11,492 nucleotides of DNA from Candidatus Fermentibacterota bacterium. Its GTDB lineage: Bacteria; JAFGKV01. Location: positions 1-11,492 of the forward strand of contig JAUXFG010000126.1 of the NCBI GenBank assembly GCA_030620115.1, in the 5' to 3' direction. The notes below the pieces were generated by a model. It was not told where the DNA came from. It saw nothing but the letters and a program-made list of their open reading frames with translations, and searched no databases. This document shows positions 4,958-7,790 of the stretch, in pieces. The translations under genes and the position numbers were made by a program. Positions within the stretch are counted from its first letter, which is position 1, and every line of letters begins with the position of its first letter.

Positions 4958-5077
4958 TTAGTTCTCGTCCAATTTGAGGTCATAGTCACCTGGAGGCAAG
5001 AGATAGTGACAAGTGGCAACGTTGATTGATATTTCGACGCTTCGGGTTGTGGGAGCGTTTTGGGGTTCAGCGTTCAT
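4958..5077 (-). pseudogene. Probable 3' remnant of a lost minus-strand gene
   Basis: A 39-codon frame from an ATG at 5077 to a TAA at 4958-4960. The first dozen codons are read through the GTTCA-rich repeat and look like noise. The last 27 or so (from RSVEISINV through HYLLPPGDYDLKLDEN to the stop) read like a genuine protein end: alternating hydrophobic residues and a PPGDYDLKL turn-strand pattern common at the ends of beta-sandwich domains. The apparent coding stretch begins where the repeat ends (about 5060), as if repeat-associated recombination removed the 5' part of the gene. I cannot assign a family from so few residues. A chance short ORF remains possible. Confidence 0.35.
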
Positions 5078-5106
5078 GCGTTCAGCGTTCAGAGTTCAGG
5101 GTTGAG
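5064..5106. repeat. GTTCA-rich short repeat stretch
   Basis: A run of GTTCA-type words (GTTCAGC, GTTCATGC, GTTCAGC, GTTCAGA, GTTCAGG) at irregular 7-9 bp spacing. Similar words recur at 5155-5168, 5314-5342 and 7767-7790, and in reverse complement at 5363-5368 and 5448-5460. The irregular spacing and lack of unique spacers rule out a CRISPR array; this is dispersed intergenic repeat material. Confidence 0.7.
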
Positions 5107-5190
5107 AGTACAGGTGGAAGAACAGGCCGTATGAGTCATGTACTCTCAAACAAGGGTTCATGGTTCAGATGACGGAGGAAGGAAGCAGAG

Positions 5191-5225
5191 AGATTCTTCG
5201 CTCCTTGGAGTCGCTCAGAATGACA
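5191..5225 (-). repeat. CATTCTGAG...GAAGAATCT repeat, copy 1
   Basis: On the minus strand this 35-nt unit starts TGTCATTCTGAG and ends GAAGAATCT. I recall this CATTCTGAG/GAAGAATC motif as a frequent intergenic repeat in many environmental bacterial genomes; that is memory, not a search. It pairs with copy 2 at 5255-5289 in inverted orientation. The inner 14 nt (CGACTCCAAGGAGC) differ from the other copy. Confidence 0.75.
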
Positions 5226-5254
5226 GTGGTAGTGTGCAGAAGTAGATGGCCGCG

Positions 5255-5289
5255 TGTCATTCTGAGGGAGCGAAGCGACCGAAGAATCT
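5255..5289 (+). repeat. CATTCTGAG...GAAGAATCT repeat, copy 2
   Basis: A 35-nt unit starting TGTCATTCTGAG and ending GAAGAATCT; its first 12 and last 9 bases are identical to copy 1 (5191-5225, opposite strand). The inner 14 nt read GGAGCGAAGCGACC here, rich in the same GGAG/GCGA words but in another arrangement. With 29 bp between the copies, a long hairpin with an unpaired middle is possible. Confidence 0.75.
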
Positions 5290-5411
5290 GGGTGGGGGGA
5301 GGAGAGAAGGAAGCGTTCAGGATTCAGGGGTTCAGGGTTCAGGAGGGACGCTCTCCCTGTCCTGAACTCTTGTTTGAGAGTGCATTTCATATCTGCTGTA
5401 CTCTCTACTTT

Positions 5412-5440
5412 GAAAAACCTGATGGCGCGGTGCCATCAGG
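5412..5440 (-). terminator. Terminator-like hairpin, minus strand
   Basis: A perfect 9-bp stem (CCTGATGGC at 5418-5426, GCCATCAGG at 5432-5440) with a 5-nt loop, followed on the minus strand by TTTTTC (5417-5412). The shape fits a rho-independent terminator reading leftward, but no minus-strand gene lies upstream of it in this window. It sits in the right arm of the composite repeat and may simply be part of that element. Confidence 0.45.
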
Positions 5441-5460
5441 GGTCGCACTGAACTCTGAAC

Positions 5461-5569
5461 TCCCGTAACGCCTGTGGCTCGCCATGCTAAGTCTATTGCG
5501 TGGGAGTTCATCAATCAGTACGTTGTCCTCGATCTGTGATGTTCAGTTCGGAACCGGAGGAGGCTCTCA
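5461..5569. other. Upstream region of the miaA operon
   Basis: This stretch separates the composite repeat from the first gene of the four-gene operon. The operon promoter should lie here or in the repeat. The best -35-like TTGCGT has only a poor -10 partner (TACGTT, 17 nt away), so I do not call a promoter. GGAGGAGG just before 5570 is a strong ribosome binding site. Confidence 0.4.
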
Positions 5570-7761: not shown

Positions 7762-7766
7762 GCCGT

Positions 7767-7790
7767 TCATGGGTTCAGCGTTCACCGTTC
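7767..7790. repeat. GTTCA-rich stretch, second locus
   Basis: GTTCATGG, GTTCAGC, GTTCACC and GTTC follow each other, the same words as in the composite repeat region near 5064-5106, about 2.7 kb away. This shows that the repeat family is dispersed between genes. Confidence 0.6.

Follow-up and report, generated by a model that had tools for sequence, protein, structure and literature searches.

Nested repeat families joined at GTTCAG heptamers between two divergent genes of a Candidatus Fermentibacterota bacterium

Intergenic composites in which REP-type repeats stand together with other repeat families are known from E. coli (BIME) and Neisseria (NIME). Miniature elements derived from IS200/IS605 (PATE-like) have hairpins near both ends, lie 3′ of a fixed short target and leave no target duplication. 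The CGTC-tagged REP dimers (Di Nocera et al. 2013, PMC3733652) have stems of 8–9 bp with loops of 4–5 nt, and are found inside palindromes in H. neapolitanus and in mosaics in Neisseria. They have no known mobilising enzyme, and reportedly no transposase is dedicated to them, even though the genomes that carry them contain Y1 genes. Heptamers are enriched among the simple repeats of bacteria, as in Xanthomonas and Nostoc (GGGAATC, GGGGAYT), while the GTTCAG heptamer described below is not named in that study (PMC4692102). Literature on the motif sequences of the present locus yielded nothing relevant, and the same was true for repeats of Eisenbacteria.

The window analysed here is a stretch of 11,492 nt of the Candidatus Fermentibacterota genome. 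It includes a gap of 969 bp between divergent genes for a 306-aa protein (start 4600, minus strand) and a 116-aa protein (start 5570), with fn3 repeats, miaA and a family-2 glycosyltransferase identified nearby by Pfam. A first-pass annotation had described an inverted repeat in this gap, with two arms carrying four motifs in the same order. All four were found in mirrored order, as follows:

5087–5099: motif 1, GTTCAGAGTTCAG, with a perfect complement at 5448–5460
5104–5112: motif 2, GAGAGTACA, complemented in the right arm (5095–5113 against 5396–5414, 84% identity)
5138–5160 and 5363–5385: motif 3, CTCTCAAACAAG block, 23 nt, 91% identity
5191–5225 and 5255–5289: motif 4, AGATTCTTCG block, 35 nt, 77% identity

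The pairing of GAGAGTACA with TGTACTCTC noted earlier within the arms is present in both, being exact in the left arm and having one mismatch (GAGAGTGCA) in the right. Nine GTTCAGNGTTCAG-like pairs occur in the window, against an expectation of 0.07. The 386-nt stretch has a folding energy of −82.8 kcal/mol, compared to −49.6 kcal/mol in dinucleotide shuffles (z −8.95). When the whole stretch was compared by BLAST to its own 4.1-Mb genome, 67 matches were obtained, mostly to the middle part.

The arms had been taken for copies of one duplicated element, but a search of the whole genome showed the motifs occurring independently and in other combinations, an outcome that the annotation had itself named as evidence against such an element. 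Each motif is part of a separate genome-wide family: the four motifs of an arm are heptamers, the left half of the second hairpin of a module B, the right end of B, and half of a module A. The two 35-nt blocks together form a single module A, as its arms, and the true composite is wider than first noted, extending from about 5013 to 5490 within a palindromic host repeat, E:

5013–5070 (+): left end of E, GTTGATTGATATTTCGACGCTTCGGGTTGTGGGAGCG...GTTCAG, homologous to E left ends at C185, C227, C191, C105, C114 and C262
5065–5101 (+): GTTCAGN heptamer array of the E left arm; such directed arrays adjoin the modules and contribute to a period-7 excess
5102–5154 (+): B1, a copy of B that has lost its first hairpin (TTGAGAGTACA...TGTACTCTCAAACAAG); fold z −2.6
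5155–5168 (+): heptamers joining B1 to A, GGTTCATGGTTCAG; an identical joint is present at C166
5169–5313 (+): extended module A, comprising ATGACGGAGGAAGG..., an inverted REP-like pair and purine-rich GGGTGGGGGGAGGAGAGAAGGAAG
5191–5289 (+): core of module A, about 100 bp, with REP-like arms at 5191–5225 and 5255–5289 and TGTC tags facing inward (REPIN-like)
5315–5345 (+): heptamer array between A and the E centre
5339–5365 (no strand): central palindrome of E (GTTCAGGAGGGACGCTCTCCCTGTCCTGAAC), where the heptamer orientation flips
5369–5447 (−): B2, full-length, with two hairpins; a BLAST and nhmmer member of the family, 91% identical to the consensus; fold z −5.2
5418–5440 (−): hairpin 1 of B2 (CCTGATGGCACCGCGCCATCAGG) followed by TTTTT, terminator-like
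5448–5490 (−): right end of E, CTGAACTCTGAACTCCCGTAACGCC..., common to C227, C55, C7, C122 and C294; the outer limit is approximate

The left arm thus runs E-left, heptamers, B1 (+, hairpin 1 lost), heptamers and A (+), and the right arm heptamers, E centre, B2 (−) and E-right. A, B and E each occur alone elsewhere in the genome as well as combined.

The heptamers of the host repeat E read GTTCAG in one half and CTGAAC in the other. E was found at no fewer than 15 places, only in the window's own genome. It is present without A or B at C7, C294, C272, C122, C176, C80, C115 and C247, with B at C227, C55 and C105, with a long form of B at C185, and with A at C191. The centre of the window's E is closest to that at C105, and analogous centres occur at C7, C227, C191, C122 and C176. 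Tandem repetition with a period of 7 nt is pronounced in this genome, with 86 runs at lag 7 compared to 14 at lag 6 and 41 at lag 8, and none at lag 7 in shuffles; these counts come from about 1.1 Mb examined as stretches that were partly picked for carrying elements, so that per-Mb values are biased. The excess derives from several motifs, all with GTT (GTTCAGC, GTTCAGG, GTTCGAT and GTTGAAT). A lesser tandem excess at period 8 was seen in the same 1.1 Mb. Like the repeats of Xanthomonas and Nostoc, the heptamers are intergenic 7-nt tandems, G-rich and sometimes inverted, but their motif (GGGTTCA/GTTCAGC) differs, and here they are joints or landing sites of other repeats. A further degenerate GTTCAG heptamer tract, with a weak match to E, lies at 7765–7790 of the window, between miaA and the next gene.

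Module A has 154 strict copies genome-wide by pattern search, while a reversed control pattern gave none. Its tags with the AT that follows, TGTCATTCTGAG and CTCAGAATGACA, are present in all 154 strict copies (being set by the pattern) and are near-invariant in 56 aligned copies; the extended flanks are common, in whole or part, to 57 aligned copies. Six of 79 copies lie inside long ORFs. The core folds well (−24.6, z −5.5), but the single arms of about 35 nt in the window fold weakly (−1.7 and −2.5 kcal/mol), no better than shuffles. No RNA covariation was detected in A beyond that of shuffles (90.8% paired in both), the pair columns being almost invariant; A is therefore conserved as a DNA sequence, with no RNA-type support. 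It resembles the CGTC REPs in having a TGTC/CGTC tag followed by AT as the first stem bases, head-to-head (tag-to-tag) arms, very many copies, and resident Y1 genes that are not flanked by it. Unlike them, it has no stem of 8–9 bp with a 4–5-nt loop in each unit, and is bedded in directed GTTCAG heptamers. Because its single arms fold so weakly, A is CGTC-REP-like but not a member of that group. A also resembles the REPINs (Bertels and Rainey 2011, PMC3116915), in that two short repeats in inverted orientation are dispersed together as a unit, but it lacks the GTAG tag, and none of the RAYT genes of this genome has A at its flanks.

Module B is an element of about 79 bp with two hairpins (consensus GTTCAG followed by TGCGGCCTCTGATGGCGCCGCGCCATCAGGTTTTTCAAGGCAGAGAGTACAGCAAATATGAAATGTACTCTCAAACAAG). 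Its own genome has about 20 copies, two of them in the window (B1 and B2), and none of the 20 lies inside a long ORF. The interior of B1 is that of the copies at C166 and C150, both of which retain hairpin 1; its loss from B1 apparently occurred by deletion between TTCAGGG repeats. In hairpin 1 of the family, 88.8% of cells are paired compared to 82.8% in shuffles. The hairpin is kept in relatives, and the column pair 19–34 is T-A in 13 and G-C in 10 of 26 sequences, an exchange that represents chiefly one change between genera. The T run that follows becomes ATTCTC or TTTCTC in relatives, while the hairpin is retained.

With a loose cut-off, B matches were also found in two genomes of the same family, 46 in G001 and 12 in G002. 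Both carry long forms (165–341 nt) that keep the ends of B but vary in their interior, 90–330 nt being enclosed by the second inverted repeat. The ends of B are constant across genera. An autonomous long form, with distant ends and a gene between them, was sought and rejected, as only the 165–341-nt forms were found. At L157, L158 and L169 the interiors are themselves repetitive, made up of heptamers (GGCTATC) and hexamers (TATCGC) in short tandem arrays together with other repeats, and differ from copy to copy, so they may be variable cargo. In the sister genus (L142, L103 and L169; JAFGKV contigs), two further repeats stand after B: one (TGGGGGCCCCGGGC...) that also occurs without B, as GCTTAG followed by TGGGGG, and a textbook CGTC REP (CGTCATTGCCCGACTCGTTCGGGCAATCCAG, fold −9.7 kcal/mol).

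The insertion point of B can be read from paralogous sites. An empty site at C176 (...GTTCAG followed by GAAAAAACCTGGTCC) has a filled counterpart at C185, where a B of 224 nt lies between GTTCAG and GAAAAAACCTGGTCC, and at C207 the copy of B has GTTCAG immediately on one side and the A flank ATGACGGAGG (ATGACGG) immediately on the other. When the flanks of 17 B copies were rejoined and 20-mers of the joints were searched with up to two mismatches, those of 10 copies recurred elsewhere (184 places) at the true cut. With the cut displaced by 2, 3, 5 or 10 nt, recurrence was seen for 0–3 copies, and with a displacement of 7, one heptamer, for 8–9. The remaining 7 of the 17 had no recognisable empty junction within the approximately 1.1 Mb examined. 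B thus sits exactly 3′ of GTTCAG without visible target duplication, as judged by C185 against the empty C176 site; by the same comparison it lacks the target-site duplication of a classical DDE MITE. GTTCAG could instead be B's own end, but the phase-preserving joins and C185 speak against this.

Orientation is equally regular. Heptamer arrays neighbouring A are on the same strand in 46 cases and on the opposite strand in none. Wherever A and B are clustered they are co-oriented, except for B2 of the window, which is co-oriented with its own heptamers, these being inverted as part of the other half of E. The mirrored motif order is explained by this arrangement, because E has oppositely oriented GTTCAG arrays and the modules follow the heptamer orientation. 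As an intergenic mosaic the locus is comparable to BIME and NIME, but differs from them in that GTTCAGN heptamers form the joints and set the orientation, and in that its families have no sequence relationship.

The annotation had suggested looking at the syntenic site of relatives, and G001, of the same family, was found to be without the modules there. Its gene order is the same, with homologues of the 306-aa, 116-aa, 151-aa and miaA proteins, and the gap is 459 bp compared to 969 bp, with no GTTCAG, A or B motifs in it. As G001 belongs to a different genus and the gap is unalignable, this represents absence at the site and not an exact empty junction. A chimeric contig across the repeat was rejected, as the conserved gene order on both sides speaks against it.

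There is good support for the proposal of a non-autonomous mobile element, non-coding and located between divergent genes: the families are dispersed, mostly intergenic and without a recognisable gene, and are missing from the syntenic site in G001. B resembles the IS200/IS605 miniature elements in its hairpins near both ends, its position 3′ of a fixed short sequence and the lack of duplication. It differs in that an autonomous Y1 partner with the same ends was not found in three genomes, and that its second inverted repeat can enclose up to about 330 nt. The window's own genome encodes four Y1 transposases of RAYT type (L061–L064, at G000:C187, C118, C200 and C241). Each gene has long inverted repeats of its own on both sides (e.g., GGGGTCAG..., GTAGGTCGGGTTAGCGC...) that are not related to either module, and since none has A or B ends a link to these modules was rejected. 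The Y1 genes examined in relatives likewise have no A or B ends, and no B-like ends were found within about 1.5 kb of any Y1 gene detected in the three genomes. On the minus strand both boundaries of B abut CT, the dinucleotide at which the studied TnpA-REP enzymes cut (PMC8266576), a likeness that is suggestive only.

Taken together, the locus is a nested mosaic of non-autonomous repeats, in which the palindromic E carries opposed GTTCAGN arrays, one with B2 and the other with B1 and A. B, and perhaps A as well, were probably moved in trans at TTCAG by a single-strand enzyme. The putative enzyme would act on single-stranded hairpin DNA of B, and probably of A, and join the ends beside the short target (immediately after ...TTCAG), as IS200/IS605-type Y1 (HUH) transposases do; slippage of the heptamers would then enlarge the landing site and allow insertions to accumulate. 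Against this stand the resident Y1 genes with their unrelated repeats, no transposase tied to A or B having been found, and the 90–330 nt enclosed by the second inverted repeat of long B, where the end hairpins of IS200/IS605 are small. A less likely alternative needs no transposase: the modules would have come together during replication, by recombination between short GTTCAG arrays or by template switching from one to another, with the arrays as homology joints only. Most module joints do lie at a heptamer, exact 7-nt shifts nearly match the true cut (8–9 versus 10 copies), hairpin 1 of B1 was lost between two TTCAGGG repeats in the manner of a slippage-type deletion, and other heptamer motifs have expanded too. 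However, B joins exactly to non-heptamer sequence after GTTCAG (GAAAAAACC at C185, ATGACGG at C207), its ends are constant across genera, and 154 copies of A require a copying mechanism.

It is improbable that B is retained at gene ends for a regulatory role, as a terminator or attenuator of transcription. The terminator-like site at 5440–5418 (−) and the paired changes that conserve hairpin 1 would suit such a role, but the T run decays in relatives that keep the hairpin, B1 at the same locus is without the hairpin, and B2 is located where two genes diverge rather than where one ends. Least probable is the original idea of one duplicated structured element or RNA with the four-motif arm as its functional unit. 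The strong fold of the whole stretch and the motif order common to both arms were in its favour, but the motifs also occur separately and in other combinations, the syntenic site of the relative lacks them, no Rfam family matched the stretch, and compensatory change in A equals that of shuffles; with the T run of B not retained in relatives, a structured RNA has little support. Returning to mobilisation in trans, a bolder version is rather doubtful: one enzyme recognising single-stranded GTTCAG would insert unrelated hairpin modules (A, B, perhaps E) one way, with the heptamer arrays as self-made docking sites and B carrying variable interior DNA, a cargo suggested by the long forms in the sister genus.

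An elaborate symmetry is thus explained by simple rules, namely a landing word, a fixed orientation and a palindromic host, and paralogous empty and filled sites are present in one genome. Intergenic DNA of this uncultured bacterium appears to be built up by repeated insertion at a preferred landing sequence (GTTCAGN). With their defined target and exact junctions, A and B are a concrete substrate for finding a mobilising enzyme of such repeats. Many contigs end inside A or B, so these modules are probably the cause of many breaks in assemblies from this bacterial family. The arm motif of A, TCATTCTGAGGNAGCGAAGCGACNGAAGAATCT, or close variants of it, also occurs singly or paired in distantly related genomes (L081–L089; G015, G016, G026 and G007), indicating that this arm type is widespread.
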